Source of the DNA: a virus
Strand: one strand, 5' to 3'
Length of the DNA stretch: 47,097 nucleotides
Virus record (IMG/VR): IMGVR_UViG_3300017963_000093
Coordinates: 1-47,097 of that record
The translations under genes and the position numbers were made by a program. The notes beneath the pieces are model-generated. The model searched no databases. It worked only from the letters and a program-made list of their open reading frames with translations, and was not told where the DNA came from. Positions 783-43,416 of this stretch are shown one piece after another. Numbering within the stretch: the first letter of the stretch is position 1; every line of letters starts with the position of its first letter.

Positions 783-1213
783 GCGGTCAGAAGAACGATC
801 AAGATAAGATCCAGCTCGAGCTCCTGGACCCGGCCTTCTTGATGGGAGTTGGCGAGATCATGACCTTCGGCGCCAAGAAGTACGCCAAGTACAATTGGAT
901 GGAGGGGATCGAGGCGAGCCGGTTGTTCGGGGCCCTCATGCGGCACATGTGGGCGTTTTGGGATGGGGAGGACATGGACCCGGAGAGTGGCAAGCCCCAC
1001 CTGTGGCACGCCGGGTGCTGTCTCATGATGCTGAACCGGATGTTTCACAACCGGCCGGACCTGGACGACCGGCCTAACTTTAACGGGATGGTTCCCTCAA
1101 ATTACTGTCATATATGCGGAACGACAGTGAAACATGACTATTTAGGGATGGACAAGCCGGCGCAGTGCTACTGTGGAGAATTGAAAAATGAAACTACTGA
1201 TAGTGGGAAGTGA
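779..1213 (+). CDS. DUF5664 (dATP/dGTP diphosphohydrolase-like, MazG-type) protein with C-terminal zinc ribbon
   Basis: 144 residues. The N-terminal two thirds show the DUF5664 pattern: LLDPAFLMGVGEIMTFGAKKY near the start, then YNWMEG, an R-x-x-x-A-(L/x)-x-R-H helix (LFGALMRHMWAFW), DxExG and HLWHAGCCLMML. This all-alpha MazG-like family removes pyrophosphate from purine dNTPs in the members studied. The C-terminus adds a CHIC...CYC pair that looks like a zinc ribbon. It is coupled by ATGA overlap to the gene before and overlaps the SDR gene after it by 26 bases. Role inferred: dNTP-pool adjustment. The related MazZ of 2-aminoadenine phages comes with PurZ and DatZ, which are not seen here. 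Confidence 0.75.
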   Translation: MSGQKNDQDKIQLELLDPAFLMGVGEIMTFGAKKYAKYNWMEGIEASRLFGALMRHMWAFWDGEDMDPESGKPHLWHAGCCLMMLNRMFHNRPDLDDRPNFNGMVPSNYCHICGTTVKHDYLGMDKPAQCYCGELKNETTDSGK

Positions 1214-2099
1214 GGGCTACATTGGACGCGCCTTATGCCGCCGGTTTACTTTCCGGGATGATATTGAGCTGTTCCGTGTTGATCCTTGTGTTTACGGTCA
1301 GCCGCCTGCTACACCCGCAGTCCAGAAAATTTTCAAAACCAAAGACGTCGTCCGGTATATTGACAAAATCGTCCCGGACCATATCGTCTGGCTCGGCGCC
1401 TACGCACACGACCCGTCCGGGCGCATCAATACCACCATCGCTATTCGGAATAATGCTCGAAGGGTCGCCGTGGCTCTCTCCGGGACAGGCTGTCCTTACA
1501 CCGCTGTCTCGTCACTCTCCGTCTTCGCTGAAGGTGCATACCCAGAGTCTAAACGATATCTCGAGCAAGCTCTTGTCGCGGCCGGGGACTTTGGTGCCCG
1601 TGGATCCCTTCTTCGGTTCGGGACAGTGTTCGGCGTCCCGAATCCCGGCGACGCAGAGTCTTTTCGCGCACACCTCCTGCTCAATCGGATGTCCATCGAC
1701 GCGGTCACCAAAGGAAAGATTACCGTTACGCATCCAACTAAAAGGCGACCAGTCCTGGCTCTGCGTAAGGCCGTCCACGCCCTGGAGCGGGACATTTTCT
1801 CGGAGGGCCCCCGCGGCACCATTTCGAACCACTACGACACATGTGGCACACTTCAGGAGTTTGCCCAGCTCGTCCAGCTCAAGGTCGCCATGAAGAAGCC
1901 AGACAGTCCTGTTGAGATCGTGGTCCCCGACAACGCGCCGGACCTTGACAACCGGGACTACGGGTGGGGCGAGTTCGAGCCGATGGAGATTAACCTGGAG
2001 CTCAGTACCCTGATCCATTCGGTCGGAGTGTACGACGGCGCCGATCAGTTCAAGGCCCTGTACGGATTTGTGGAAAAGAATGAGGATGGAACGCTCTAA
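1188..2099 (+). CDS. NAD(P)-dependent sugar-nucleotide epimerase/dehydratase (extended SDR)
   Basis: 303 residues, normal for the extended short-chain dehydrogenase family. The Rossmann dinucleotide motif GSEGYIG is at residues 7-13, a serine stretch (VSSLS, 107-111) sits where the catalytic Ser/Thr belongs, and the YxxxK pair is Y118/K122 (YPESK). These enzymes epimerise, dehydrate or reduce nucleotide-linked sugars. A GGAGAA site precedes the ATG at 1188, which lies inside the end of the DUF5664 gene. The DegT aminotransferase two genes downstream is the usual partner: SDR makes a keto-sugar nucleotide and the transaminase aminates it. The precise sugar cannot be read from the sequence. Confidence 0.85.
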   Translation: MKLLIVGSEGYIGRALCRRFTFRDDIELFRVDPCVYGQPPATPAVQKIFKTKDVVRYIDKIVPDHIVWLGAYAHDPSGRINTTIAIRNNARRVAVALSGTGCPYTAVSSLSVFAEGAYPESKRYLEQALVAAGDFGARGSLLRFGTVFGVPNPGDAESFRAHLLLNRMSIDAVTKGKITVTHPTKRRPVLALRKAVHALERDIFSEGPRGTISNHYDTCGTLQEFAQLVQLKVAMKKPDSPVEIVVPDNAPDLDNRDYGWGEFEPMEINLELSTLIHSVGVYDGADQFKALYGFVEKNEDGTL

Positions 2100-2322
2100 A
2101 ACAATTATATTTACCCAGCCGGATCCCGCCGAGGTGAGGGCCACCTGGACGGGGTTTATGGCACAAGAGGATCTGATTGTTCCAGGATACGGTCGTTACT
2201 CGTACTGGGACATTGCACAAGCCCTCCACGCGGTGGAGTTTATCAAAACTAACCGGACTCTCCTTCATAAGCGAGGGTTCCAGCGTCGAATGAAAAAGGC
2301 AGGATGTAATGGAATTGTATAA
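2080..2322 (+). CDS. Small protein of unknown function between SDR and DegT genes
   Basis: 80 residues from the ATG at 2080 (GGAAAAG upstream; a second ATG lies at 2086 and a TTG at 2068). Not recognised. It is basic at the C-terminus (KRGFQRRMKKAGC), has an aromatic mid-section (GRYSYWDIAQALHAVEF) and no predicted membrane segment. It overlaps the SDR gene by 20 bases and the DegT gene by 14, so it is co-translated with the sugar enzymes and may serve the same pathway, but nothing in its sequence proves this. Confidence 0.6.
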   Translation: MRMERSKTIIFTQPDPAEVRATWTGFMAQEDLIVPGYGRYSYWDIAQALHAVEFIKTNRTLLHKRGFQRRMKKAGCNGIV

Positions 2323-3328
2323 ACCACCGCGACTTACGGGAAAGTACCTCGACAAAGTCTTGGCCTCCCGGTGGTTGACCGCGGGGCCCATGTGCGAGAG
2401 GTTCAGAGAGGCTGTAGCAGAGAAGCTAAAGGTGGGGCCCGACCGGATCGCGCTCGCGGCCCGGGCTACGAGTGGGTTCCAGGCGGTGCTGGATATGATT
2501 TGCTACCATGACGCGCTGGGGGAGGAGCCGGAGGACTATCCGACAATTGATTGTACGCACGCGACCTTTGTCGGGATTCGGCATGCGATCTCACATGCTG
2601 GGATGTGTACGGGCTGGGACCGGGACTGGCGGTCTCGGCCTGATATTGTGGTCAAAACTGATATTGGAGGACGGAGGCTGGCAATTGAAGATGAAGATAT
2701 GTCTTCCCGCTACTTTGTGGCGAATCGCTTACCTTATCCGAAATGGTATATTCACGACGCGTGTCACTCTTGGCTGCCTGATCCTGCCGCCGACTTTGCG
2801 GTCCTCTCTTGCTATCCAACGAAACCTGTGCCGGGCGCTGAAGGCGGGGTCGTGGTTTGTAAAGACCCAGAACACGCCCGGGAGATTGAATCTTGGTGTT
2901 CTTCTGGACTTTCTCCAGCGTTTAACCCCACAAGACTTGGAGGCACTGAACCAAGCGTACCTGGCCGAGAAACGCATCTCACAGACGTGGCGGCCGCGCT
3001 CAATCTTGAGGCGTTGGAGGTGTCGGATCGTTACATGGCTGGGATTCGGCTTTCGTGGCAGAAGCTGGCGCGTGCTGGACAGAATTGGGAGGTCCCTTTT
3101 CGGTGTCAGCCGTTGGTACCGTATCTCTTTCAAGTGGAAGTACGGGATGTGGCCGAAGTTCGTGCGGAGTTGGCGAAATGGGGCGTCCCGACTGCGTGGA
3201 ATTTTCCGCCGGCGCCGCTCGTGACTCTCCCGTGCCGGCCCGACATGGGGATCCGGGAGGCCGAGCTGATTATCAAGTTTACCCGGCGGGCCATTGAGGC
3301 TGTGGAAAGTCGACGAGTCGCAAACTGA
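2309..3328 (+). CDS. DegT/DnrJ/EryC1/StrS-type sugar aminotransferase
   Basis: 339 residues, slightly short for this PLP-dependent family (about 360-390). The N-terminal SRWLTAGP (20-27) matches the family's 'WLTTGP' signature, the PLP phosphate-binding stretch is ARATSGFQAVL (51-61), HDACHSW (149-155) matches the 'xDAAQS' motif with the PLP-ring aspartate at 150, and YPTKPVPGAEGG (169-180) holds the Schiff-base lysine K172. These enzymes aminate keto-sugar nucleotides with glutamate as donor. It ends the plus-strand block and is preceded by the SDR gene that would supply the keto substrate; the formyltransferase at 34668 could act on the new amine. The region around position 100 looks condensed compared with bacterial members. 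Confidence 0.85.
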   Translation: MELYKPPRLTGKYLDKVLASRWLTAGPMCERFREAVAEKLKVGPDRIALAARATSGFQAVLDMICYHDALGEEPEDYPTIDCTHATFVGIRHAISHAGMCTGWDRDWRSRPDIVVKTDIGGRRLAIEDEDMSSRYFVANRLPYPKWYIHDACHSWLPDPAADFAVLSCYPTKPVPGAEGGVVVCKDPEHAREIESWCSSGLSPAFNPTRLGGTEPSVPGRETHLTDVAAALNLEALEVSDRYMAGIRLSWQKLARAGQNWEVPFRCQPLVPYLFQVEVRDVAEVRAELAKWGVPTAWNFPPAPLVTLPCRPDMGIREAELIIKFTRRAIEAVESRRVAN

Positions 3329-19835: not shown

Positions 19836-20551
19836 TATTGAATAAAGCAGTAAGGCTCCTCCAAAAGTTTTCGTAAATGGTTCGGCGCAAGAAAATGATC
19901 CCATAAACAGAAGTACAAAATATGTGAGCGGGTCGCCATTTCTATGCCCGGAGCAGTAAATTTGAGTGAGGAGTACGTGGCGGATAATGGCGTGGCTGTG
20001 TTTCGCACCACACTTTCTTCCACGGCACCGGTTGTGAGATTTTTCATCATCCCAATTTGCTGGTCCTTATAGCGGAAGGCCCCGACGACTAAAATGGTAT
20101 CACCATTGGCGACTTTCGTAAATGTGGGGCAGCTCCCGTAACCGGGCCACATACGTACGCGAACATCCGGCGTAGCGGCTGACAGAATTTGCAGGCTCGC
20201 ACGGGTGCTCCCCTGATAATCCTGACTGTAGGCTTGCAAGTAATAGCGTGTGGATCCATCTAAGGTCGGCTTGAACAACATCAAAACGGTTGCGTCTTTG
20301 TAGGCCGGCCCCGATTCCTTAAAGCTCGACTCATTCCGCCAGATCGTATTGTACCCACTCATGGCCGGGCCTTCACGGATTGTTTCTTTCAGCTTTACAC
20401 CCCCGGCGTCCATCTTTGCCATCTGGAGCCCGCCCCCGGTAATGTCGTACGCATAATTATCACTCCTACAGATCGTACACTCTTGGAGTCCCCGCGCTAG
20501 TGGGTGTGTGAAATCAACGCGGCGCCCTTCCGGAGGCCTATCAACCCTCAT
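19835..20551 (-). CDS. LamG/concanavalin-like jelly-roll structural protein
   Basis: 238 residues. The opening VDFTHPLARGLQEC matches the 'x(N/D)xxHPLAxGLxxC' start of many phage proteins with a LamG-like jelly-roll, and the end (HLRKLLEEPYCFIQ) matches their 'LxxxPYxF(L/I)' close. The interior alternates short strands typical of the fold (ATVLMLFKPTL, YYLQAYSQDY). Such proteins are carbohydrate-binding or stabilising parts of phage tails. It overlaps the 20541 gene by 11 bases. Confidence 0.6.
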   Translation of the reverse strand: MRVDRPPEGRRVDFTHPLARGLQECTICRSDNYAYDITGGGLQMAKMDAGGVKLKETIREGPAMSGYNTIWRNESSFKESGPAYKDATVLMLFKPTLDGSTRYYLQAYSQDYQGSTRASLQILSAATPDVRVRMWPGYGSCPTFTKVANGDTILVVGAFRYKDQQIGMMKNLTTGAVEESVVRNTATPLSATYSSLKFTAPGIEMATRSHILYFCLWDHFLAPNHLRKLLEEPYCFIQ

Positions 20552-20999
20552 AGCTCGCTAATGCCTCGGCTTTCCACATGACCAGGCCACTGGATCCAAT
20601 ATTATTATGACACACCGCACGGAGTCGTTTAATAGCGGAGCAGTCGATGTGCGATACGAACTCCTCACATTTGTTGTACACCGACGAGCTCTCCTGGGTG
20701 TTTTGGAGCCCGTCCACCAACTCGAGATGCACATTGGCGTCAATGTCTGCGAGCCGATGCCACTCACTTTTGGTAATGTCAATAATGTTCTGAAAGGCCA
20801 CAATATCGGTTGTGGTGTAAGACGGCGTCGGATTAAACTCGATCAGGGTCTGCGCCGGATTCTCGGCCTGTGTGATAGCCGTGGCAGCCGCGGCAACAAA
20901 GGTGCGGAAAGAATGGAGGGTACGCCAAGCGTTAGCTGACTCCGTGCTGTTTACCTCAATTCGGTACTCAGTTCCGAATGTCGGGGTAGCGGTATTCAA
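20541..20999 (-). CDS. Hypothetical structural-region protein
   Basis: 152 residues if read from the TTG at 20999; an in-frame stop lies 10 codons upstream and no ATG or ribosome site was found, so the start is unsure. Contents: a beta-like N-terminus (TPTFGTEYRIEVNSTES), a helical middle and five cysteine/histidine-bearing spots near the end. No family recognised. It lies between a short Gly-rich protein and the LamG-like gene, so it is probably a virion or assembly component. Confidence 0.5.
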   Translation of the reverse strand: MNTATPTFGTEYRIEVNSTESANAWRTLHSFRTFVAAAATAITQAENPAQTLIEFNPTPSYTTTDIVAFQNIIDITKSEWHRLADIDANVHLELVDGLQNTQESSSVYNKCEEFVSHIDCSAIKRLRAVCHNNIGSSGLVMWKAEALASYEG

Positions 21000-21029
21000 T
21001 GGTGCGTGTAGGATCGAAAGCAGGACATC

Positions 21030-21224
21030 TTAGTAATTGGTCACGTCCAGTTCATCGCTGGCAAGTACCAATCCACCTGAAACCGTCGTGACTTCCTGCA
21101 CATCTGAAAGCACGGCCTTGGTCAGACTCGCCGTACCGCCACCGCCACCGCCGCTTCCCGTATCCGGGATCCACTTCTGTGCCGTGGCGTCCCAGATGTG
21201 TGCGTGAATGTCTCTGTTTTCCAT
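21030..21224 (-). CDS. Short Gly-rich tail-associated protein
   Basis: 64 residues from the ATG at 21224 (a TTG lies 12 bases earlier). It opens with ENRDIHAHIWDATAQKWIP, has a run of six glycines and a short hydrophobic C-terminus. Small proteins of this form (HIWD...W, then a Gly run) occur in other phage tail regions, and the Gly run may be a hinge. It is the first gene after the terminator at 21235-21284. Confidence 0.5.
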   Translation of the reverse strand: MENRDIHAHIWDATAQKWIPDTGSGGGGGGTASLTKAVLSDVQEVTTVSGGLVLASDELDVTNY

Positions 21225-21234
21225 TAGTTTATCC

Positions 21235-21284
21235 AAAAAGACGGGCGGGGCAGGGGCCGCCGCTACCCACTGCCCTCGTCCGTC
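21235..21284 (-). terminator. Rho-independent terminator after the double glycosyltransferase
   Basis: Read on the minus strand: GACGG and GGGCAG pair with CTGCCC and CCGTC around a small internal loop, and five Ts follow (AAAAA at 21235-21239 on the plus strand). It lies 8 bases after the stop at 21292 and just before the ATG at 21224, separating head/glycosyltransferase genes from tail genes. Confidence 0.75.
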
Positions 21285-21291
21285 ATAGGGT

Positions 21292-23871
21292 CTAAGTTGT
21301 GATCAATGTTTTCATCTGATCGGCGAGGTCTTCAAAATTGAATCGTGCACACGCATCCAGGTGTATAGGAGTTCGGGTGTGCGTGCCTTCCAGGGCATTC
21401 GCCAGAACATTCGCGGCGTCCGACGGGTTATTAGGGTCGATAACCATCGCACCTCGGCATGTCTCTTTAAGGGCGGCCTTATCGGAGCAGAGTACAACCA
21501 GCCCCGCGGCCTGTGCCTCCATGGCTGCCATGCAGCTGATCTCCGGGAACCGTGTCGGATACAGCCACACACCAGCCGAGCAGAACTCCTTGGCGAGCTC
21601 CTCCCAGCCGACGTTCCCGTGCCACACGATCCGGTCGTCGGCGTCGCACGCCGCCGCGACGGCCTGCATGTACTCGTACATGTTTGCCTCCCGGGCTATA
21701 TCCGGTATGTGACAATACTCGTACTTTTGGGCATTCGTGAGGTACAGCTTGTTGAAGCCATAGAACAGATGAAGTTCACTATCCGGTACGTTGGCGGCCT
21801 GAAAGATCTGGATCGCGGAGAGGATACCACGGTCCGGTGAGGAGGCGTATACCACCTTGCGGGGGTTCCGGGGGATCCCGAAGTAGCGCTTGAACAGATC
21901 TGCGTCGATCCCGTTCCGGGTCACCTTCACTTTGTCGCCCAACATATTCAGGACCGGCCCGAGCGTCGATTTATGGTACTCGGACTGGACCCATACCTGG
22001 TCGGCCAGGGCTACCCGGGCCTTGGTCCATCGCTGGGGCGACTGGACGTCGTGACACCACAGGATCCGTTTCTTGGTCTTGTACGGCATCTCGAGCATTT
22101 CCGGGGCCCGCCAGTACACGATCGTATCCCGGGGCACGGCCTTGTCAAATGCGCCGAAGTGCTGCCAGTTAGCCCCGGTCTTGCTATCAATTCCACGCTG
22201 GTTCCGGGGAACGTTGGCGTAAACGGTAATGCAGAGGTCTCGCGCCTGTAAGCGTTTTGCGATCTCGATAACCATTTTTTCCGAGCCCCCGATCCCGATC
22301 TCGCCTGACCTCGGACCCCAGGCAGTAGGGGTGTCGCCGCAGTAAATGGTCACCTTCGGACCATCGCGGCCATCAGTCGGCTCGGTCTTGGCCAGGTGCA
22401 GCTTCTCGAGCGTGTCTGGGACCGCGTCCAAGTGAGACACGATCGCTCGCCCGATCCGCTGCGCCTCCTCCCCGCCCTTGGGCCGGGCGTTCACGACAAC
22501 ACGCTGAACGGACTTGATGAGATCCGTCTCGGCCACCCAGGAATTGATCACCTGTTCGATGTTGGCGGTGTCGGGATGGTTCGGATACCGTTCCTTCAGG
22601 TAATTGATCATCTGGAGGGCGAGTTCGGGCTGGTTCAGTTCCTTGTATGCCAGCGCAGCGATCTGGTACGGTAAGAAATGGATCTGGAGCGGGTTGTAGT
22701 TGTGCAGGCTACCGGACGGCTCCGGTAGCATTTTCCCAACATTGAACCAGTGGATCGCCTCCTGAAACCGGCCTAAGTGGTAGTACGCCCGTGCCATCTC
22801 GAAGTAGGCACGGGGATCTTCCGGTTTGATGACCTGACATTTCTGAAGCCAATCGATCGCGTCCAGGTGTCGCTTCGTCTTCTCGGTCTGGTAGATGATG
22901 GCAATGTACAGGGCCGCCGCGAACCGGTCGTCCCGGCTCCCGGACAGTTTGATCAGCTCCTTGTAGTAGTTGATCGCGTCGCCATCCAGGTCCAGGCCCC
23001 GGCACGCATTGCCGAGGTAGAAGATCGAGCGCGGATCTGGGTTGTTTCCGGCCTCCTCGAGCTCTCGGCGGATGATGACATAGTTCCGGATGTCGGACGC
23101 CCGGTCCTCGGAATGGTCCCTGAGGTGCTTGATCCCGGCCTTCAGGTCCTGGTAGAAGGCGGCGCCTTTCATTTGGGCGCCCTCCCGGGGGATGGCCGTT
23201 TCATGACACCGGCCCACCCAGCGGTACACGCGCCGGTCGATGACCCGTTCCCGCTTCAGGATCGAGGAAAGCGACCCATCATGCTTGTCAAAGCTGTATT
23301 GGTACGGGAGGAAAATGGCATCATACCGGCCCACGTCACGGTTGATCATGGCCCGGAAAGTGCCAGGATGTTCCTCGATGAAAATGTCATCGGCATCGAT
23401 CCAGAACTGGATGTCGTGTTTGGCGGCGTCCATTAGGATCTGCCGCGCTTCCGCAAAGTCCAGGACACAGCCTTCGGTCAGCTTCGTTTTCCCGTAGTGC
23501 TCAACCCAATCGGGGAGCCACTTCTCGACGTAGGGTTTGAAATCGTGGGACAGATCCGGACGCTCCAGGACCGTGGCCCCGAGCTTCCTGGCAACTTTAG
23601 CTGTCTTGTCCGTGCTTCCTGTGTCGAGAACTAAAAGCTCGTCGCAGGCGTGCAAAAAGTTCGCTTTCAGGCTCTTGATCGTCTCCGGAAGCGTCGTCTC
23701 GGCATTCTTGGCGATGATCGTTACTGAGACCGGGATTGAAGACTGCCCGATCTGAGTTGAAGGGCCGATCCGAATTGTCCTGACGGGTGCGGTGGTCCGC
23801 TCCTTCTTCTGAGTCGGTCCGCGATTGGCTTTTCTTCGAGCCTTTCTTTTTGCCTTTGTTTTGCGCGACAC
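21292..23871 (-). CDS. Double glycosyltransferase: GT2 + TPR + GT4
   Basis: 859 residues. After a very basic N-terminus (residues 1-25), a GT2 domain begins at about 46: SVTIIAKNAETTLPETIKSL, LVLDTGSTDKTAKVA and the metal-binding FWIDADDIF. A helical TPR-like region follows (about 300-440; YLGNACRGLDLDGDAINYY, AYYHLGRFQEAIHWF). A GT4 (GT-B) domain fills the rest: GIGGSEKMVIEIAKRL, WCHDVQSP, RNGIDADLF and the family glutamates in FPEISCMAAMEAQAAGLV. Two transferases in one chain could add two sugars in turn. The start is a GTG at 23871 with AGGAG upstream, inside the end of the previous ORF (275-base overlap). The setting between capsid and tail genes suggests virion glycosylation. Confidence 0.9.
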   Translation of the reverse strand: MSRKTKAKRKARRKANRGPTQKKERTTAPVRTIRIGPSTQIGQSSIPVSVTIIAKNAETTLPETIKSLKANFLHACDELLVLDTGSTDKTAKVARKLGATVLERPDLSHDFKPYVEKWLPDWVEHYGKTKLTEGCVLDFAEARQILMDAAKHDIQFWIDADDIFIEEHPGTFRAMINRDVGRYDAIFLPYQYSFDKHDGSLSSILKRERVIDRRVYRWVGRCHETAIPREGAQMKGAAFYQDLKAGIKHLRDHSEDRASDIRNYVIIRRELEEAGNNPDPRSIFYLGNACRGLDLDGDAINYYKELIKLSGSRDDRFAAALYIAIIYQTEKTKRHLDAIDWLQKCQVIKPEDPRAYFEMARAYYHLGRFQEAIHWFNVGKMLPEPSGSLHNYNPLQIHFLPYQIAALAYKELNQPELALQMINYLKERYPNHPDTANIEQVINSWVAETDLIKSVQRVVVNARPKGGEEAQRIGRAIVSHLDAVPDTLEKLHLAKTEPTDGRDGPKVTIYCGDTPTAWGPRSGEIGIGGSEKMVIEIAKRLQARDLCITVYANVPRNQRGIDSKTGANWQHFGAFDKAVPRDTIVYWRAPEMLEMPYKTKKRILWCHDVQSPQRWTKARVALADQVWVQSEYHKSTLGPVLNMLGDKVKVTRNGIDADLFKRYFGIPRNPRKVVYASSPDRGILSAIQIFQAANVPDSELHLFYGFNKLYLTNAQKYEYCHIPDIAREANMYEYMQAVAAACDADDRIVWHGNVGWEELAKEFCSAGVWLYPTRFPEISCMAAMEAQAAGLVVLCSDKAALKETCRGAMVIDPNNPSDAANVLANALEGTHTRTPIHLDACARFNFEDLADQMKTLITT

Positions 23872-24256
23872 GGCGAATGTCTCCTGTAACGTACAGCCTG
23901 GTGCGGCGGCGGTAGTCCTTGGTTGGATGGATCAGGTCGCACCAAACCCGAGCCAACAGATCCAGATCCTTGTCGTCACGGCCGAAGTCTGGGATCCAAC
24001 GTTGGATGAACATCATGAGCTCTGTCGGTACCCGGTACCGGAGATACATTTCCCGGCCCTTGCCGAGGTCCACCCGGCCGTGTTCGACCGTGACCTCTTT
24101 CATACGTTTCAGCCAGGTCCGAAAGAAGTCGGCCTTGGCGGGGTACATTTTGTGCCACCAAGTTCCTAACTCCTGGAGGAACTGTTCCTTGCCGGTCTTC
24201 ATGTGGATGTCGAACCGGCCGAGCTCTTGACGATAATCTTTCTTGCGGCTTGACAT
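23597..24256 (-). CDS. Hypothetical protein with charged run-on C-terminus
   Basis: 219 residues. Residues 1-130 look like a folded helical protein with many W, R and K residues (FLQELGTWWHKMYPAKADFF, LLARVWCDLIHP). The last ~90 residues are low-complexity and highly charged, and lie entirely over the start of the glycosyltransferase gene in another frame. Either the overlap is real or an indel removed the true stop. It is the first gene after the capsid terminator. No family recognised. Confidence 0.5.
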   Translation of the reverse strand: MSSRKKDYRQELGRFDIHMKTGKEQFLQELGTWWHKMYPAKADFFRTWLKRMKEVTVEHGRVDLGKGREMYLRYRVPTELMMFIQRWIPDFGRDDKDLDLLARVWCDLIHPTKDYRRRTRLYVTGDIRRVAQNKGKKKGSKKSQSRTDSEEGADHRTRQDNSDRPFNSDRAVFNPGLSNDHRQECRDDASGDDQEPESELFARLRRAFSSRHRKHGQDS

Positions 24257-24264
24257 TTTCTTTA

Positions 24265-24295
24265 CAAAAAAGGCCTGGACCGGCCTGAAGGCCCG
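24265..24295 (-). terminator. Rho-independent terminator after the major capsid gene
   Basis: On the minus strand AGGCC-GGTCCA-GGCCT forms a 5-bp stem directly followed by a T run (AAAAAA at 24266-24271 on the plus strand). A neighbouring GGCC-TTCA-GGCC hairpin could stack on it. It lies 29 bases after the capsid stop, a usual place for a terminator that limits downstream genes relative to capsid protein. Confidence 0.75.
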
Positions 24296-24323: not shown

Positions 24324-25259
24324 TTAAGCGATGTAGGGCACGAACCCCGTCCCGCCTCCACCGGCCTTCTCGGTCCGGTAGATCATGGTCGCCTCGGCGC
24401 TGACCTGGAACCTGGTCCGGAGACCGTCCCTGGCGAGCGTCTCGGTTCTCAGCGGGGTGAGGAACCCAACCTCGAAGTAGCTCGGGTCGAGCAGGACCAC
24501 GGAGTTTCCGTAGGTCGTCTTCGAGGCACTTTTCAGCTGGTCGCGGCTGAAGTAGATGTCGACGTTGCCGAAGTCGCTCTCGTACTTGTCGACCACAAGC
24601 ATCTGCGTCTTCGCCATCGCGGGGATGTTGTAGCGCAGCTTCGTGGAGTAGAGCGAAATCGTCCGCTTGATGAGAGCGTTGACAAACGCCGTGTTGGGCC
24701 GGATGTCAACGTTGTTGTCCACGTACAGCTGGATCAGATCGCCGAAGACTTCCTCGGTGAGGGTCGTTCCGGAACTGTCCGTGAAGTTCGTGGAGAGGAC
24801 GTTCAGGAGCCCGCCGAACTGCCGGGCTGCACTGGTGGCACCGGTGGCCGCCGATCCGCGGTGGAGGGCGTGCTCGATGTCATTCAGTGTCGATTCGACA
24901 GCCTTCTGCTCCTGGTAGAGGTACATATCGTTGAAGCCCTTGTGCTCCACCGACCTCTGGGTGTCGGACACGTACCCCCAGCGAGCGAACTGCTGGACGT
25001 GCGTGAACGTACGGGAAGGAGTCGTTTGCGCCTGGTCGGTCGCCTGGACACCTTCGATGTAGGCGTTGTGCGCCCTGGAAGGAAGGGAATCCTCCATCCA
25101 CTCGATGAAGGTTGTGTTGACCCGGGACTTCCGGAAAAGGCCAAGCGCCGGCCGGTCGACCGGGCTGACATTCTCCACGAAGTCACGCAGGTCCTCAGGG
25201 ATCGACCCACCCTGCGGGCGGGCCGCGGCAGTAAACTCCTGCCAAGTCAAAAGAGCCAT
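24324..25259 (-). CDS. Major capsid protein, SU10-like (DUF5309 type)
   Basis: 311 residues, typical for this HK97-fold family. The pattern agrees: FVENVSPVDRPALGLFRKSRV near the start, EWMEDSLP, an EG(V)QATD loop, YVSDTQRSVEHKG, then DIEHALHRGSA and a long helical/beta C-terminal half. The C-terminus has a Gly-rich tail. It follows the scaffold gene after 3 bases and is followed by a terminator, the classical arrangement. AGGTAA precedes the ATG. Subunits build the icosahedral head; there is no large N-terminal delta domain, consistent with a separate scaffold. Confidence 0.85.
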   Translation of the reverse strand: MALLTWQEFTAAARPQGGSIPEDLRDFVENVSPVDRPALGLFRKSRVNTTFIEWMEDSLPSRAHNAYIEGVQATDQAQTTPSRTFTHVQQFARWGYVSDTQRSVEHKGFNDMYLYQEQKAVESTLNDIEHALHRGSAATGATSAARQFGGLLNVLSTNFTDSSGTTLTEEVFGDLIQLYVDNNVDIRPNTAFVNALIKRTISLYSTKLRYNIPAMAKTQMLVVDKYESDFGNVDIYFSRDQLKSASKTTYGNSVVLLDPSYFEVGFLTPLRTETLARDGLRTRFQVSAEATMIYRTEKAGGGGTGFVPYIA

Positions 25260-26820: not shown

Positions 26821-28923
26821 CTACGGAGGGTTTGCAGGCTGCTGCCCGGACTGGGCAACAGTCTGGAACATTTGTTGAATCAGTGCGGCCTGTTCCGGCG
26901 TACGCACCACGAGCTTGGCCATGTTGCGGTCAAGGGTATTGAAGTACCACTTGATGAGTTCGTGTTTGTTCACCAGCCCCGATGTGTCGTTCAGGAACGC
27001 CCCCAGAGCCTCTCGGGCGCGGGCCATGGCCAGCTGTCGGGACGTATTCGCCGGGGTGCCCGCCGGGACGATGTCATAGTCGTGGGCAATCTCGTGCTTC
27101 TTCATGAGCCGGGGCATGTCTTCGCCGATCACTCGGAAGTACTCCTCGTCCGGGCCGAAATCAAGCAGGAGGTGCCACAGCTGTTTGTGGACCTTTTTCA
27201 TGTTGGCCTGGAGCAGCCTCGCGTCCTGGCCGAATATGGACTGGGTCTGCTGCATGATCGCGTCGACCTCGGTGGCGGTCCGGCGCTCGGCCGTGCCTTC
27301 CGCCAGGACACCCGGGTCGAAGACCCCGATGTACTCCTCCGCGTCTCGGGACGTGATGTTTTCTTCGTTGATCGAGGCCAAGAGATTGGACGTGTCGAAT
27401 GTGAGCGGGGCGATATCGCCGGGTTGTGAAACTGGGATGATCGAGCCCGGCATGTACTTGATGTTCCGCTTCATCTCGTTGCCCGTCACGCGCATCGCCA
27501 TCATCGGTGAGAGCATGATCTGACCGGCGTCGAGCCGAGCATTATGGAGCTTGTTCTTTGTCGCCTGGTGGACCGAAAGGTGCTCTGCAATTCCGCGGGA
27601 ACCATAGGGGCGGTTCGATCGGTGCTCGAACTCGTGGCGTACCACCGGCCACTCGGAAAACGAGAACGGCAACGCATACAGAGCCAGAATAGTCCCCCCG
27701 AACGGTCCTGTATCGGAGCCCTCTCTCGGCTCGGTGCGGAGATCGGGATGGTACCAGAGCCGGCACCGTTCCTTGATACCGTCCCCGTTGATATCGATCT
27801 TACAGTACACTTCGAGAAAGTCGTCCTGGTTCGGCTCCTCGACCCGACCGTTATCGATTCCGTCCGATCGGTCCAGGACCGTGGTGATATTGAGCCGATT
27901 CCCAACGCTCAGGCCCTCGAAGTTGTTGTTCCGTTCCGGGTCGCTCATGGCCCGGGACTTCATCTTCTCTACCACGCCGGCGACCGCTTGTGGGATGAAG
28001 TGCCCGTCGACGGCCATTTTCATCAGGTCATCGGCGCTGAACCGGTGACGGAAGGCAATGTACTCGGCGTCGTCCACTTTCTGATTCCGGGGCGGCTCGA
28101 TCGCGTCCAGGGGGCTGACAGCAACCCAGGACAGCTTGTCGTGCCGCACGATCCGGTAGTAGATCTTGACTTTCTCGGCCCCGGCCAGGATCTTCTCGGT
28201 GACTTGGACGATCTGGTCGTACTCTAAAGGGTTGTCTTGTCGAAGGTTATATTCGTCCTGGAGCGTGTCCATGACGAATTGTTCGGGGGTTGTCGGTGCC
28301 GGGATCTGGTCCAACGCGTTCGCGGGCGCCTGTCCCGCGTCAATGGCCTGCTGGGCTTCAGTGCGGGCCTGCTCAACCCGGGCGTTAAACTGCTCCACCG
28401 CGGCCTCGACACCTTGCGGGAACAGGGACCGAGCGAAAATGATCCGGCATTGGCGCTCGGTCTGATAGTTCCAGCCCTGGATCGTATAGCCCTTGCCGTG
28501 CTGGGCCACGTACTCGAGGAGCTCCATAACGGTGTCCTCGACGTTCTCGATCGAATTGAACTTGTAGTGATAGTACGCCTCGACGTCGTCCTTGGCCCGG
28601 ACCCCCGCGGTGTTGAGTGGGAAAAAGTGGGCCACCGGATCGGACTGGGTAATGAGCGCGGCCATGGACGGTTTCCACCGGCGGATCACTTTATCGACCA
28701 GGGGCCAGTTGTGGTTGTTGGCCCCTGGCCAGGGGAACACTTTCTTGCGCCGGATCCCGAGTCTTTGACGGAACAGCTTCTCCTGCTTATGCATCCAGGT
28801 GTGTCGGGCCGAGGCGGCCTGCTTGATGCGCCGGTCCAGGTCCTTGACCTGGATCAAAATGGACTCACCGCCCATGTTCCCGAGCGTGCTCAAATCGAGC
28901 GGATTCTGTCTTGAAAGACTCAT
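26821..28923 (-). CDS. Portal protein
   Basis: 700 residues, in the range of P22/SU10-like portals. Typical features: an N-terminal helical part with FPWPGANNHNWPLVDKVIRR and TQSDPVAHFFPL, a central beta/helix region (LSWVAVSPLDAIEPPRN), and a wing followed by the clip/stem helices (FDTSNLLASINEENITSRDAEEYIG). It ends with a Q/P-rich tail. A 12-subunit ring would carry the packaging motor and adaptor. Its ATG overlaps the stop of the glycosyltransferase-like gene at 28920 (ATGA), so modification cassette and head genes share one transcript. Confidence 0.8.
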   Translation of the reverse strand: MSLSRQNPLDLSTLGNMGGESILIQVKDLDRRIKQAASARHTWMHKQEKLFRQRLGIRRKKVFPWPGANNHNWPLVDKVIRRWKPSMAALITQSDPVAHFFPLNTAGVRAKDDVEAYYHYKFNSIENVEDTVMELLEYVAQHGKGYTIQGWNYQTERQCRIIFARSLFPQGVEAAVEQFNARVEQARTEAQQAIDAGQAPANALDQIPAPTTPEQFVMDTLQDEYNLRQDNPLEYDQIVQVTEKILAGAEKVKIYYRIVRHDKLSWVAVSPLDAIEPPRNQKVDDAEYIAFRHRFSADDLMKMAVDGHFIPQAVAGVVEKMKSRAMSDPERNNNFEGLSVGNRLNITTVLDRSDGIDNGRVEEPNQDDFLEVYCKIDINGDGIKERCRLWYHPDLRTEPREGSDTGPFGGTILALYALPFSFSEWPVVRHEFEHRSNRPYGSRGIAEHLSVHQATKNKLHNARLDAGQIMLSPMMAMRVTGNEMKRNIKYMPGSIIPVSQPGDIAPLTFDTSNLLASINEENITSRDAEEYIGVFDPGVLAEGTAERRTATEVDAIMQQTQSIFGQDARLLQANMKKVHKQLWHLLLDFGPDEEYFRVIGEDMPRLMKKHEIAHDYDIVPAGTPANTSRQLAMARAREALGAFLNDTSGLVNKHELIKWYFNTLDRNMAKLVVRTPEQAALIQQMFQTVAQSGQQPANPP

Positions 28924-29633
28924 TTTTTACCGTTCAGTAACTGCTTGTAGGCCGGCATCTCCGACTCAAATTTCACCAGCTGGGGGTCCTCCACCAGCGC
29001 CATGGTCGCGGCGTCTATTTTTCCTGCTTCTTTGTAGGCTGCCCAGACTCGGGCCCGCTCGGCGGCGTCGAGGTATCCGACGTCGAGGAGCCGGCTATTT
29101 GTGACCACGCGCACGGAGGCAGGGTCGTCATGGATTCCCACTGGGCAGTGTATGATCCGACTTTCGGTGTCCGGGAAGGACGTACCAGGGCGGTCCTTAA
29201 AAAAGACAGGCGAGACATGCGGTGGGATCCTTTCGTTTGTGTGTTCCAAGTCGTCCCAAAAGAACGCCTTCTTCATGTCGATGATGTCGGCGCCCATGGT
29301 CATGTACTGCTTCACTTCGTCCGGGTCCTCCAGGAGGTGGTCGTCGTCCCAGAAGCCAATGTACTTGGGATTGTACTTACGGATCTGTTCGAGCTGCCAC
29401 TGGCGCATGACCATAAAGTGCTCGCCGTTCTCGTCGACGACGGGAAACGGAGCCCTTTGACTAACAGCGCCCTCAGTACCATCCAAGATCGAGGCGATGT
29501 CCAACTCGCACCGGTCCTCTGTCAGCTGAATAATGCTATTGGGCCAGGCCTCACTGATCTGTTCCACGATCAGCCGGAGCGGCCACGGGCGCTTGTGGAC
29601 CAGGATCATCACGCCGAGGTCAACGTTCTGCAT
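28920..29633 (-). CDS. Glycosyltransferase-like protein (GT-A fold)
   Basis: 237 residues. It opens with a beta strand (LGVMILVHKRPWPLRLIVEQ) like GT2-type transferases and carries a DDDH metal-site candidate in YIGFWDDDHLLEDPDEV at about residue 90-105. A second acidic stretch (FFWDD) follows. The nucleotide-sugar donor cannot be told. It overlaps the methyltransferase gene by 14 bases and the portal start by 4. It may be one of the enzymes that decorate the virion or the DNA. Confidence 0.55.
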   Translation of the reverse strand: MQNVDLGVMILVHKRPWPLRLIVEQISEAWPNSIIQLTEDRCELDIASILDGTEGAVSQRAPFPVVDENGEHFMVMRQWQLEQIRKYNPKYIGFWDDDHLLEDPDEVKQYMTMGADIIDMKKAFFWDDLEHTNERIPPHVSPVFFKDRPGTSFPDTESRIIHCPVGIHDDPASVRVVTNSRLLDVGYLDAAERARVWAAYKEAGKIDAATMALVEDPQLVKFESEMPAYKQLLNGKK

Positions 29634-30234
29634 AAATCATCCCCAGCTTCGTGTCGATCTCGGTCAGCTTCCAGTCTCCCAAGTGGTTTAGTACTGCCCG
29701 GCGCACGTCTATGAACTGACCCGGGTCGAACTCCTGGCCTTGGACGGCCTTGCCGCAGTCGTGGAACAACATGATATCGATCCGGGTCTCGTCCCGGATC
29801 TGTTTGATGTCCTTCGCGGCCCCCTCGTAGCTATGGTCACCGTCAATGAAGGCCCAGTTGCACTTCCAGTGCCCGATCGGCATGTCCTCGGCCTTGGCCG
29901 AAAGGGCCCAGATCTCAGGCCATTCCGGGTGGTCTTTCCAACGCTGGAGACAGTCAATTGTGTAGACCGTGCTGGCCAAGGTGGCGCCGTCGATGTCGTT
30001 TCCGCGCCGGAGCCCTTCGGCAATATACCGTGTGGAGACGGCCTGATCAGTGCCGATCTCTACAGCCGAGCCCTGCATGAAAGCCAGATTGGCCAGGACC
30101 TTGCCCTCGTCGTGAAACACCGAACCGTGCCCTTCAGGCTGGTGGAACTGAGGGGGTCCCGTAAAGTGATGGTCCTGTGGCTCGAACGAGCACCCAAAAG
30201 ATTTTATGAACTCGTCAACTGAAACCTTCCTCAC
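29620..30234 (-). CDS. SAM-dependent methyltransferase, class I (sugar O-methyltransferase-like)
   Basis: 204 residues from a GTG at 30234, which overlaps the previous stop as GTGA. The SAM site is AVEIGTDQAVSTRYIAEGL, and AFIDGDHSYEGAAKDIKQI matches the acidic 'DGDHxYxxxxxD' signature of the macrocin-O-methyltransferase / Methyltransf_24 group; DIMLFHDCG follows. Members methylate sugar hydroxyls or act near glycan genes. It sits in a cassette with two glycosyltransferase-like proteins and a HAD phosphatase, which supports a glycan substrate. Not a DNA methyltransferase: the NPPY/DPPY-type motif is absent. Confidence 0.75.
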   Translation of the reverse strand: MRKVSVDEFIKSFGCSFEPQDHHFTGPPQFHQPEGHGSVFHDEGKVLANLAFMQGSAVEIGTDQAVSTRYIAEGLRRGNDIDGATLASTVYTIDCLQRWKDHPEWPEIWALSAKAEDMPIGHWKCNWAFIDGDHSYEGAAKDIKQIRDETRIDIMLFHDCGKAVQGQEFDPGQFIDVRRAVLNHLGDWKLTEIDTKLGMIYAER

Positions 30235-30482
30235 GGCTTCCGTTCCCAGCGGGTACCCCGCCAAATGCCGGTGCCTTCCCGACGGATTCCTCCGCACAGG
30301 TGACAGGGGCTGGCCGGATGGTAGGACCAATAATAACCAGTAGCGCCGCAGTCTTGGCAAACCGTTACATTGGTCCAGCCAAGACAAGCACCGTCCCCAC
30401 GAGCCCAAGCCGACGGTTTGAATTGGCCAGGTTCCGGCGGTGGGCCGTAGAGCCTCCGCCACAATTTAGAAAGTAGCTTCAT
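30231..30482 (-). CDS. Small zinc-ribbon protein in the glycan cassette
   Basis: 83 residues. CQDCG and CHLCG (about residues 42 and 59) make a four-cysteine zinc ribbon; the N-terminus is basic (KLLSKLWRRLYGPPPEPG), the C-terminus Arg/Trp-rich. It resembles the 53-residue protein at 19301. Overlaps both neighbours by a few bases. Function unknown; perhaps a nucleic-acid- or partner-binding accessory. Confidence 0.6.
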   Translation of the reverse strand: MKLLSKLWRRLYGPPPEPGQFKPSAWARGDGACLGWTNVTVCQDCGATGYYWSYHPASPCHLCGGIRREGTGIWRGTRWERKP

Positions 30483-31771: not shown

Positions 31772-31968
31772 TTTCCTTTTCTCCGTCGGGCCTTTGTTGC
31801 CGCCCGGTTTGCGGCACCTGTTACGTCACCGTGCCGGCGGCGCATCTCTTTATCAAGGGCCCTTTGAAGGGCACTGTCTTTGTACTCTGAACCGAGCTGT
31901 TTTTTAATTCCCTCTACGGTGTACTTGTTGTCACGCCCAAATCCTTGTGGTCTGCGTTTCTTACCCAT
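31768..31968 (-). CDS. Small basic protein after the large terminase
   Basis: 66 residues from the ATG at 31968 (GGAGTG site upstream). Rich in K and R, especially at both ends (GKKRRPQGFGRDNK, NRAATKARRRKGK); probably binds nucleic acid. It overlaps the terminase stop by 8 bases and the lipoprotein gene by 4. No family recognised. Confidence 0.55.
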   Translation of the reverse strand: MGKKRRPQGFGRDNKYTVEGIKKQLGSEYKDSALQRALDKEMRRRHGDVTGAANRAATKARRRKGK

Positions 31969-33517
31969 AATCACTCCATAGATCGTCAGCTGTGTTTTCC
32001 TTTTCCAAATCTTCGGGCGTCCAGCGTTGGAGCGCCTTTACCTCGGCGGCGGTTAGCGGCGGTGGACACAGGACAGTGTACGCGACAGTGTCCATGGGGT
32101 CCTTGAATTCTTCACTGACCTTCTTGAACAGGCCCTTGACGGGGTTGTCCACGTCGAGGTACCCGTAGTGGCGAAAGGCCTTGTCTAAGTTCGTCAGGCT
32201 CCGGAACACCATGATCTGGGGCTGGTTCGACGGCCCGATCTCGAACCGTTTGTCCCACCGGAGCATCTTGGAAATTACTTGGTGTCGGTACTCGAGGTTC
32301 CCGGTGTTCGGGACGTGTGCGTCGAAGTCGAGCCCGACGTCGGCCATTTGGTCGACCCAGCACGTTTCTTTGTACCCGTGCCGTTGATGCTCTGCTTTAC
32401 CAAATCGTGGATCGCAGATGCGACGGCTTGCTGGAAAACGGCCCTCGGCATTTCTAATGATTGTTGCGTACTCGACAGGTGTAAGACCACCCGACCGCGC
32501 TTTGAAGAAATCGTAATTGGGCCACTCTCGGTAAAAATAGTAAGATTGTGTGTTGGGATCATATGCCCACCAGAGCATGAACGCCGGCCGCTTGTGGTGC
32601 GGGTCAACCGTCAAGCCACGGACCCAGTCCCTGGGGATGGCAAAGTCGTCGACCAGGTGCACATCGGGATCGTACTCTTCATAGACCCGGTCGCCCATTA
32701 CCTCGAACTCGCCCCGGAGCCGGGCGGCCTTCTCCCGTTCCGGCCACTCGCCGGCCTCCTCGAACGCCTTCCGCTTGTCGGCGGTCATGGCCGGGTTGTC
32801 CCGCTGCACCACCTGGACGATGTACACGTCGTCGGGCGGCTCCCGGTAGAATGGCATCATCCAGGCGGACCGGGCCCCGAGCGGCGTTAGGGTGAACCAC
32901 ATCGGCCCCAGGTTCGCTGCGAGCCGGGCCTGCATGGCGTTGTAGATCTTTTGCCGGACTGGTTCGTCGCACCACCACCAGTCCGCCACAAACCCCTCAA
33001 ACTGGAAATCGTCCTGCTCCTCGGAACTGAAAATTACCCGGCTCCCGTTCGGGAGCGTGAACTTCTCCGGGATCCCACCCTGGCCCCGGACTACGTGGAG
33101 TCCGGACTTTCGGCGTCGCAAAGCCTGAGGTAGAATCCCTTCAAGGAACGGCCACAGGTTCTCACCAATTCCCCTTCCACGAGAAAGTCCGGTGGTAATG
33201 ACTCCAAGATTCGGGACTTTGATGGGGATCCCGTCCGGACGTCGGATCCAGAAGGCTGGATCGATGTGATCTCGAGGAGGAAGGTCACCATCCGGGGTGA
33301 GTCGGAGATCTGGAATTTCCCAGAAACGGTACCCGTAACTATGTCCGAGCGCTTCGTGACCCCCGGCAGTAGTCTTGCCACTCTGGTTAGCACCGAAGAA
33401 AAACCGGCGACGATACGTTTTACCAGCTTCATGAAACTGTGTCTGTTTCCTGTGGTTCTTGATCAGGTTCCGGTAGTACAGTAGGGGCGCCGCTTTGATC
33501 CTCCGGTCCAGGATCAT
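31961..33517 (-). CDS. terL: Terminase large subunit (packaging ATPase/nuclease)
   Basis: 518 residues from the ATG at 33517 (AAGGCG upstream); a GTG at 33595 would add 26 residues. Walker A is FGANQSGKTT (about 41-50), Walker B WWWCDEP (about 180-186), with the catalytic glutamate, and the coupling stretch FTLTPLG follows. The C-terminal RNase H-like nuclease shows acidic sites in GLTVDPHHKR, ICDPRFG and DPMDTVAYTV. The enzyme drives DNA through the portal and cuts the concatemer. It overlaps the small terminase by 89 bases. Confidence 0.9.
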   Translation of the reverse strand: MILDRRIKAAPLLYYRNLIKNHRKQTQFHEAGKTYRRRFFFGANQSGKTTAGGHEALGHSYGYRFWEIPDLRLTPDGDLPPRDHIDPAFWIRRPDGIPIKVPNLGVITTGLSRGRGIGENLWPFLEGILPQALRRRKSGLHVVRGQGGIPEKFTLPNGSRVIFSSEEQDDFQFEGFVADWWWCDEPVRQKIYNAMQARLAANLGPMWFTLTPLGARSAWMMPFYREPPDDVYIVQVVQRDNPAMTADKRKAFEEAGEWPEREKAARLRGEFEVMGDRVYEEYDPDVHLVDDFAIPRDWVRGLTVDPHHKRPAFMLWWAYDPNTQSYYFYREWPNYDFFKARSGGLTPVEYATIIRNAEGRFPASRRICDPRFGKAEHQRHGYKETCWVDQMADVGLDFDAHVPNTGNLEYRHQVISKMLRWDKRFEIGPSNQPQIMVFRSLTNLDKAFRHYGYLDVDNPVKGLFKKVSEEFKDPMDTVAYTVLCPPPLTAAEVKALQRWTPEDLEKENTADDLWSDYG

Positions 33518-34076
33518 CTGCGCCTTGTACGTCTGTTCCAGCCTCTGTCTGGTCGATAATTCTAAACTCGGCGGGGAGTCGGGCTGCGTTTTCACGAATA
33601 ATCCGGCGTAGGTCCTCGTCAGAGCAGGTGTCCAGCTTCACCCCTCCGGAGTATGAGTGCTTGTGTTCAACGACGCGACTGAGCTGGCCCATGCGTTCGT
33701 AGAACAGTTTGATCGCCGGCACGTCACCGCGCATGGCGGCCTGGAACAGGGCGGCATCGACCAGCCCGGCCCGGTGCCGGAAAATTTGATGAATCTGGCG
33801 ACTGACCCAGGCCATGGCCAGTGGATCAGCTATCGTGTCCCGGACCTCCGGCTCTGTCATCCCGGAGTAATCGGCGATCGCTACGAGCGTCGTACTCCCG
33901 GCAAGGAGGGCCTCCCCCATCCGGAGCACCGGTTCCGTAGGTACGAACCGGGCGAGCTCCTGATCGTCCACATTGAGGGCGGCTTCCCAGGCCTTCGCTA
34001 CTGCGGGCGAGAGCGCCGTGCGACGCTGGGGCTCGTTCTTTTTCTTTTGGCGGGTCCCGACCCGCTTCTTCGCCAT
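33429..34076 (-). CDS. terS: Terminase small subunit-like protein
   Basis: 215 residues. After a basic N-terminus, a helical region (LVAIADYSGMTEPEVRDTIA) looks like an HTH DNA-binding domain. RAGLVDAALFQAAMRGDVPA followed by IKLFYERMGQLSRVVE is the oligomerisation motif common in small terminases. The C-terminus is acidic and Pro/Gln-rich. It lies directly before the large subunit. The first part overlaps the GIY-YIG gene by 79 bases; GGGAAG precedes the ATG. Confidence 0.75.
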   Translation of the reverse strand: MAKKRVGTRQKKKNEPQRRTALSPAVAKAWEAALNVDDQELARFVPTEPVLRMGEALLAGSTTLVAIADYSGMTEPEVRDTIADPLAMAWVSRQIHQIFRHRAGLVDAALFQAAMRGDVPAIKLFYERMGQLSRVVEHKHSYSGGVKLDTCSDEDLRRIIRENAARLPAEFRIIDQTEAGTDVQGADDPGPEDQSGAPTVLPEPDQEPQETDTVS

Positions 34077-34425: not shown

Positions 34426-34674
34426 ATGAAACTGGAACGTGTTATAGAGCTTGCAGGTAAGTGGGGGTATGACGAGGAGTTAGGTCAGATATGGCTGGAG
34501 CGGGAAATGATCCTGAAAAAGGTGAACCGGGTCCCGCCACCGTGCCGGGAACGACGGCTCCGGTCTGTACTTAGGACAATCCAGGCCCGGATGCACCGGA
34601 AGGACCGGCCGCCCCAGGAGCGGACCGCGGGCCTGGCCGACTTCAGCCCAGACAAGATCCGGAGGAAATGGTGA
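34426..34674 (+). CDS. Hypothetical first gene of the plus-strand block
   Basis: 82 residues from the ATG at 34426 (CGGAAG upstream; a TTG lies 12 bases earlier). Rich in R, E and K, helical, with no recognised family. The stop overlaps the start of the formyltransferase gene. As the first gene behind a strong promoter it may be made early and act on the host, but its sequence gives no hint of how. Confidence 0.55.
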   Translation: MKLERVIELAGKWGYDEELGQIWLEREMILKKVNRVPPPCRERRLRSVLRTIQARMHRKDRPPQERTAGLADFSPDKIRRKW

Positions 34675-35261
34675 ACATACTCCTGCTCACATCCCCCTCA
34701 CGGCCCCGTACTTCGCCGCTGTGCGACTTTTTGGCCGTCCAGGGCTCGTTGAAGGTCGAAACCCGCAAACCCCGCCTGTGGGCTCCTGAGGCTCCTCAGT
34801 GGGATCTGATAATTAGCGACGGGTACCGGTGGATCATACCCCCCGACATGCTCGGGGCGGTCCGGCGCCCCCCGATCAACATCCACCTCGGGAACCCCCA
34901 GAACCGGGGCGTCTTCCCGAACTTCTTCTGTTGGCTAGAGGACCGGGCCCCGGGCTTCATGATCCACGAAATGACCAACACGATCGACAACGGGCGCCTG
35001 TACGCGGCCGGTTGGCACCAGTACAAACCCAAGGTCCTGGAAGACGAGACCTTACGAACCACCTGGAAAGATTTGTGGGAGTACGCCTTTATGCGGTTCC
35101 GAAAGTCTTGGGTCCACATTGAACGGGGCGTCCCGTTAAGTAACAGGATCCTAGCGGTCCATGACAAACCCCACACTATGAAAGAATTCAGGCGTTGGTT
35201 TTCTCAGTGCTCGAAAGGCTGGGACACGCCTGTGGAGGAAGTGAGATGTCTGAAGATATGA
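34668..35261 (+). CDS. N-formyltransferase (sugar or methionyl-tRNA formyltransferase fold)
   Basis: 197 residues, matching the catalytic domain only. INIHLGNPQNRGVFPNFF (70-87) matches the 'INxHxSLLPxxRGxxP' signature; the catalytic triad N71, H73 and D107 (in TIDNGRL) is present, and DLIISDGYRWIIPPDML precedes it as in formyltransferases. The donor would be N10-formyl-tetrahydrofolate. There is no C-terminal tRNA-binding domain, which argues for a sugar-amine substrate such as that made by the DegT enzyme at 2309. Start at ATG 34668 or GTG 34671 after GGAGG. Confidence 0.8.
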   Translation: MVNILLLTSPSRPRTSPLCDFLAVQGSLKVETRKPRLWAPEAPQWDLIISDGYRWIIPPDMLGAVRRPPINIHLGNPQNRGVFPNFFCWLEDRAPGFMIHEMTNTIDNGRLYAAGWHQYKPKVLEDETLRTTWKDLWEYAFMRFRKSWVHIERGVPLSNRILAVHDKPHTMKEFRRWFSQCSKGWDTPVEEVRCLKI

Positions 35262-43222: not shown

Positions 43223-43416
43223 TGGAAGTCACAATTACAGCATGGACGCAGTACGCAACGAAGGGCTCTCGCTGGTTGTGTACGGTAGACGGAAGCCGTG
43301 AGGGCCGGGTGCCGGGCTGGCTACTTCAGAAGCTCATGGGCGGAGAAAAACCTGATCCTAACAAGACGTATGAGATCACCGTCCGCACCGAAAGGGTCGT
43401 AGACAATGGACTTTAG
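43222..43416 (+). CDS. Small hypothetical protein before DNA polymerase
   Basis: 64 residues with GGGGGAAG before the ATG. Overlaps the polymerase start by 11 bases. Beta-like (EVTITAWTQYATKGSRWLCT) with a basic middle. May be a polymerase accessory; no recognised domain. Confidence 0.55.
   Translation: MEVTITAWTQYATKGSRWLCTVDGSREGRVPGWLLQKLMGGEKPDPNKTYEITVRTERVVDNGL

Follow-up and report, generated by a model that had tools for sequence, protein, structure and literature searches.

The closest described relatives of the enzyme reported here are protein glycosyltransferases in which a catalytic domain is joined to a TPR or TPR-like region. The Listeria flagellin O-GlcNAc transferase GmaR, which adds GlcNAc to flagellin (PMC9638930), carries a GT2 domain followed by TPRs. 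In Clostridioides difficile, SgtA transfers GlcNAc onto Thr of the GPT repeats of the collagen-like protein BclA3, which is encoded next door; the enzyme that extends the BclA3 glycan was not identified in that study (PMC7157674). The peptide S-glycosyltransferases SunS and ThuS combine a GT-A domain with a helical, TPR-like half and modify a Cys residue of a bacteriocin peptide. Protein O-glycosylation guided by TPRs is also carried out by O-GlcNAc transferase, SPINDLY and FlmG, enzymes of TPR plus GT-B architecture; the TPR domain of FlmG confers substrate binding and can supply acceptor specificity (PMC7591256).

Most of what is known of virion glycosylation in phages concerns mycobacteriophages. 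There, glycans on capsid and tail-tube subunits have been ascribed to phage-encoded glycosyltransferases (Freeman et al. 2023, as cited in PMC12619734 and PMC10955285). A phage-encoded glycosyltransferase near virion genes is what the locus described below shares with such systems. The mycobacteriophage enzymes are reportedly encoded by separate glycosyltransferase genes and not by a GT2-TPR-GT4 fusion.

We analyzed a 47,097-nucleotide stretch of viral DNA, referred to in its entirety as the window, in which GT2, TPR and GT4 are joined in this order within one 859-residue protein (minus strand, 23871–21292; GTG start). The HE, H, and RN motifs are common to this protein and GmaR; GmaR, however, possesses an antirepressor domain at the place of the phage GT4, is cellular, and acts on flagellin. 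By description rather than by sequence, SgtA is alike in its GT-A and TPR composition and in the position of its gene beside that of a collagen-like acceptor (PMC7157674), but it is 358 residues long and adds a single sugar. By analogy, a linked GT4 would be the kind of activity needed to extend an SgtA-type glycan. A second glycosyltransferase is likewise absent from SunS and ThuS, while O-GlcNAc transferase, SPINDLY and FlmG rely on a single GT-B domain of another family without a GT-A domain. The fusion represents a new form of established systems for protein and virion glycosylation, one that is widespread in uncultured phages; no description of it was found in a literature search, key subscription papers aside.

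Domains and predicted structure of the fusion protein

The earlier note had described two full transferase signatures and a TPR link within one 859-residue protein, a description borne out by the open reading frame, Pfam, and structure modeling. The plus-strand reading of 21292–23871 was rejected, as stops occur throughout. Three Pfam families scored above their curated cut-offs: Glycos_transf_2 (E 2e-10, from residue 49), TPR_2 (E 1.9e-8, repeats at about 280–432), and Glycos_transf_1 (E 3.9e-8, residues 731–833; 33.5 bits against a cut-off of 26.4). Two PHROGs glycosyltransferase families also matched, one per half. The GT4 half bears the motifs GxGGSE (526–531), R588, HD (607–608), NGI (653–655), SSPDRG (677–682), and E777; together with E785, the latter constitutes the E-x7-E element of GT4. 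No membrane segment was evident from the model or the Pfam results.

An AlphaFold model of the fusion, built with 43 viral sequences (pLDDT 92.3, pTM 0.87), has a GT-A domain extending as far as about residue 250, followed by a TPR superhelix (residues 258–490) and a two-lobed GT-B domain (residues 504–859). Such a model had been proposed as a check in the earlier note, and the loss of a catalytic domain was not seen; both the GT-A and the GT-B domains are complete. When the whole model was queried with Foldseek, OGT and SPY ranked top with high rmsd (mostly above 20 Å) and TM scores of only 0.23–0.30, for which reason a function read from these whole-model OGT matches was rejected; single-domain structural matches were used in their place. 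GT4 enzymes, sucrose-phosphate synthase and MshA among them, aligned with the GT-B half at Z scores of about 29–31 (31.2 for 6kih), and the Pfam matches listed for this half include GT4 and none to GT41, the family of OGT, SPY, and FlmG.

The GT2-TPR half, modeled separately (pLDDT 94.4), aligned to SunS with a Z score of 24.0 and an rmsd of 2.4 Å over 272 residues, far ahead of the next family. The phage GT2 profile matched the GT domain of GmaR (E 1.1e-40), SunS (E 7.9e-27), and ThuS (E 2.3e-20); against the NCBIfam SunS family itself (TIGR04195), the fusion scored 18.3 bits, below the cut-off of 350. These sequence and model comparisons place the GT2-TPR half with the GmaR/SgtA/SunS group of protein and peptide glycosyltransferases. 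Taken together, model and sequence support a TPR scaffold bearing two glycosyltransferase domains that look active, and the fusion protein is almost certainly a bifunctional glycosyltransferase. As inversion is the rule for GT2 enzymes and retention for GT4 enzymes, the first sugar would be expected in beta linkage and the second in alpha linkage.

Position of the gene in the head/tail block

Minus-strand genes of the block are ordered as terminase, portal, a gene at the scaffold position, major capsid, a small ORF, the fusion, a stop-split gene, and head-tail/tail genes (Table 1). The placement of the fusion between capsid and tail genes, as noted earlier, thus stands: capsid and portal genes lie upstream, and head-tail and tail genes downstream, where an SU10-adaptor-like gene and a gene with a weak amidase-family match (its homologue is annotated as a phage stabilization protein) are also located. 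The small ORF, absent from the earlier note, overlaps the start of the fusion gene by 275 nt, and homologues occupy the equivalent position in L001, L007, L008, L009, L010, L011, L013, and L015. A terminator had also been claimed on each side of the gene; the downstream one is strong, but the capsid-side one is weaker. Across the region, 14 terminator-like sites were counted versus 9.5 in shuffles (sd 3.4), a modest excess.

Table 1 Coordinates of features in and around the fusion gene and of candidate sugar genes in the window
Feature	Position	Strand	Basis or remark
NAD-dependent sugar epimerase/reductase, candidate donor-sugar gene	1188..2099	+	PF01370 E 1e-8
DegT/DnrJ/EryC1 sugar aminotransferase	2309..3328	+	PF01041 E 1.3e-13; PseC-like TIGR03588 E 2e-9, under family cut-off
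Intrinsic terminator 3′ of fusion gene	21244..21261	-	-30.3 kcal/mol, z -2.7, T run
GT-B domain (GT4), residues about 504-859	21295..22362	-	Pfam; GT4 enzymes aligned at Z about 31
TPR superhelix, residues about 258-490	22402..23100	-	Pfam and helices in model
GT-A domain (GT2), residues about 46-250	23122..23736	-	DxDD 159-162, HE 223-224, H249, R262
Small ORF, 219 aa, between capsid gene and fusion	23597..24256	-	Conserved in relatives
AGGAG ribosome-binding site	23881..23885	-	9 nt 5′ of GTG; seen in sequence
Terminator-like site 3′ of capsid gene	24271..24294	-	T run; fold z -0.76, stability not above that of shuffles
Major capsid protein (phrog_1328)	24324..25259	-	E 3.4e-41
Portal / head-tail adaptor	26821..28923	-	PHROG match
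Methyltransferase (PF13578) in head block	29620..30462	-	Pfam
Terminase large subunit	31961..33595	-	PHROG match
Sugar N-formyltransferase	34668..35261	+	Nearest solved structure PseJ, 6ci2 E 5e-17

The gene 3′ of the fusion (20541–21236, minus strand) has its reading frame split by an in-frame TAA at 21030–21032. Its counterparts in L001 (8598 on), L007 (10665–11381), and L010 (10639–11436) are uninterrupted and possess a linker rich in Ser, Thr, and Gly near the N-terminus.

Viral and cellular relatives

Viral contigs searched with a profile gave 79 loci; once a Manatee Spring phage record is included, 66 ORFs hold both halves. The GT2-TPR-GT4 order is found in a single ORF in about 58 viral contigs, a count that leaves out the window, duplicates, one truncated protein, and two reverse-order proteins; a chance fusion or assembly chimera was rejected on the strength of this recurrence of identical domain order. 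We aligned 43 phage proteins with 25–58% identity to the query (42 clusters at 70% identity). Invariant in all 43 are DxDD, HE, H249, and R262 on the GT2 side, and GxG(G/A)SE, R588, HD 607–608, N653, S677, R681, Y704, and E777 on the GT4 side; the alignment was partly picked by two sequence patterns, so that conservation at 784–790 and around 138–144 is biased. Residue 785, the second Glu of E-x7-E, is Lys in 10 of the 43 relatives and Glu in the window. Pairwise distances of the GT2 half correlate with those of the GT4 half (r 0.82; 0 of 2000 permutations), as expected if the halves evolved mostly together. One phage protein (L005:3472-5175) comprises GT2, TPR, and the N-terminal lobe of GT4 only, stopping at NGI, either by natural truncation or by degeneration.

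The fusion gene begins 347–1687 nt 3′ of the capsid gene, and in the same orientation, at 23 loci of podovirus-like phages that carry the capsid family of the window. This capsid family is present in 20 of 50 records, and the capsid-gene linkage could be synteny inherited from one lineage's ancestor. At some capsid-linked loci, more glycosyltransferases and methyltransferases follow the fusion. The larger phages contain, among the matches listed, at least 26 ORFs with at least 10 Gly-X-Y repeats, at no fewer than 15 loci near the fusion and with Thr mostly at Y. Likewise among the matches listed, ten genomes of 42–427 kb all had their nearest collagen-like cluster 1.5–19.5 kb from the fusion (within about 12 kb in nine), a proximity that random placement, again for the matches listed, reproduced in an estimated 1 or fewer of 100,000 simulated trials. 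No flagellin gene was present in the viral loci of the fusion. In the large phages L017, L018, L022, L024, L033, L045, L054, L056, and others, collagen-like fibre ORFs reach great length, and most of their Y positions are Thr. As many as 411 Gly-X-Y repeats were seen in one such ORF, and the fibre ORFs adjoin clusters of glycosyltransferase, methyltransferase, and FkbM genes.

In cellular organisms, 67 loci were recovered when 84,980 species genomes were scanned, all matching the GT2-TPR half alone; flagellin was nearby at seven, and a collagen-like ORF at 19, with Thr the commonest Y residue in nearly all. The GT4 half was found in 28 of the 1,679 genomes searched, which came from five phyla other than Pseudomonadota, and the GT2-TPR-GT4 order was not seen among these 28 to the extent that their matches were viewed. 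All four planctomycetes examined (L168–L171) encode flagellin, then a GT2-TPR gene, then a TPR-GT4 gene, with FliD near the row in all three checked; the row appears to be a two-enzyme flagellin glycosylation locus. The window GT4 is 27–29% identical to the planctomycete TPR-GT4. The planctomycete pair, for which we know of no report of function, resembles the phage protein in bringing both enzyme types together, adjacent and behind flagellin, but consists of two separate genes at a cellular flagellin locus. In three genomes of a non-planctomycete phylum, the GT2-TPR gene and the GT4 gene have overlapping ends. Judged from such adjacent or overlapping genes, the GT2-TPR and GT4 enzymes therefore behave as a functional pair, one that is fused in phages.

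A double fusion confined strictly to viruses was rejected in its strong form, given that a Bacteroidota chromosome (L183:8725-11136, minus strand) encodes both enzymes in one 803-aa protein, there arranged the other way round as TPR-GT4-GT2. Among the bacterial relatives of the GT4 half, some reside in sugar-nucleotide or polysaccharide loci (L172). Elsewhere (L173:2473-5076, minus strand), an 867-aa GT2-TPR-GT25 double glycosyltransferase is encoded beside a separate GT4 gene.

Proposed function and competing explanations

The best explanation for these observations, and a reasonably likely one, is sequential O-glycosylation of a virion protein by a bifunctional cytoplasmic phage enzyme. The TPR superhelix would grip a structural protein of the phage ahead of its assembly; the GT2 domain at the N-terminus, a metal-dependent inverting fold, would place the first sugar onto Ser/Thr, and the C-terminal GT4, a retaining fold, would add a second sugar to the first before the protein joins the particle. 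The enzyme may have originated by fusion of two enzymes, often encoded by neighboring genes in bacteria, that act on flagellin or other repetitive surface proteins. Glycosylation of this kind during assembly is suggested because GmaR, SgtA, and SunS act on proteins and because a TPR domain can give specificity, as in FlmG. We infer the Ser/Thr linkage, the sequence of the two transfers, an acceptor in the virion (the capsid protein or a head/tail protein encoded nearby), its binding by the TPR region, and the use of phage sugar genes.

Two lines of evidence make it very probable that the acceptor is a protein: i) the GT2-TPR half falls in the GmaR/SgtA/SunS group, and ii) its neighbors recurrently include flagellin or Thr-rich collagen-like proteins. 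This acceptor protein probably belongs to the virion. The capsid protein in particular, to which gene position only points, is a tentative candidate. Neither a collagen-like nor a strongly Ser/Thr-rich protein was found among the window's proteins. The capsid C-terminus was rejected as a conserved acceptor, as relatives share no Ser/Thr motif there, and the Gly-rich capsid tail is restricted to the window's own clade; the gene 3′ of the fusion was rejected as a general acceptor since it has homologues in near relatives only. In the window's phage, at least one donor would probably be an amino or N-formyl-amino sugar made by the phage (Table 1). Relatives of the window's amino- and N-formyl-sugar genes occur, clustered, in the L010 record, whose fusion is 52% identical; this is the only other record with them out of 34 related records, many of which are fragments.

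An unlikely alternative is that the enzyme acts on a surface protein of the host, with flagellin the simplest case, and thereby blocks adsorption of competing phages or alters motility during infection. Cellular relatives do adjoin flagellin, and GmaR acts on it (PMC9638930). The viral loci, however, lack a flagellin gene, and the fusion gene is situated in a late head/tail block, or beside collagen-like tail fibres in other phage lineages, rather than beside host-takeover genes. Building or remodeling of a host surface polysaccharide, resulting in serotype conversion or a glycan coat, would fit with the bacterial GT4-half relatives in sugar-nucleotide and polysaccharide loci (L172), but we judge it distinctly improbable: the model and Pfam results reveal no evident membrane segment, the half most telling of acceptor class resembles soluble protein glycosyltransferases, and the gene is linked to structural genes. 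There is slightly less still to recommend an enzyme that transfers one sugar only, with the other half serving as an inactive scaffold. Fusions can keep a domain merely for binding, and Lys replaces Glu785 in 10 of 43 relatives, though not in the window; the main active-site residues of both halves are nevertheless invariant across the 43 proteins, and in bacteria the two activities are encoded by distinct neighboring genes. Glycosylation of hypermodified phage DNA bases, as by the T-even glucosyltransferases, is highly improbable despite reports of phage DNA glycosyltransferases, some adding further sugars (as cited in PMC12619734), and a dATP/dGTP diphosphohydrolase-like gene in the window, given that Pfam scans of the main window genes found no hydroxymethylase or thymidylate-synthase-like gene, that the GT2-TPR half is kin to protein glycosyltransferases, and that the gene is in the late block, away from replication genes.

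Extending sequential glycosylation of virion proteins beyond the window, we propose more tentatively that the fusion could define a widespread and hitherto unrecognized phage enzyme family that installs a disaccharide on structural proteins, with both transfers on one polypeptide: on head proteins in podovirus-like phages and on Thr-rich collagen-like fibres in large phages, and here with a phage-made N-formyl amino sugar. If true, the fusion would be a single-gene marker from which virion glycosylation could be predicted in many uncultured phages, among them large phages that bear collagen-like fibres, and its neighborhoods suggest Gly-X-Thr fibres and capsid-region proteins as acceptors. Three systems usually kept apart would be tied together: the glycosylation of flagellin, that of BclA-type spore hairs, and the decoration of phage particles. 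A compact enzyme able to attach two sugars to a protein inside the cytoplasm would also have practical value as a tool.

Other genes of the window merit mention. The head-operon methyltransferase (Table 1) may modify the glycan; its L007 homologue (7020–7688) sits between the capsid gene and the fusion. The dATP/dGTP diphosphohydrolase-like gene (779–1213, plus strand) is accompanied in the window by a gene for a family A DNA polymerase (43406–45553, plus strand), and the two possibly take part in modified-base nucleotide metabolism. A pentapeptide-repeat protein with a DUF5758 tail is encoded at 39171–39779 on the plus strand.
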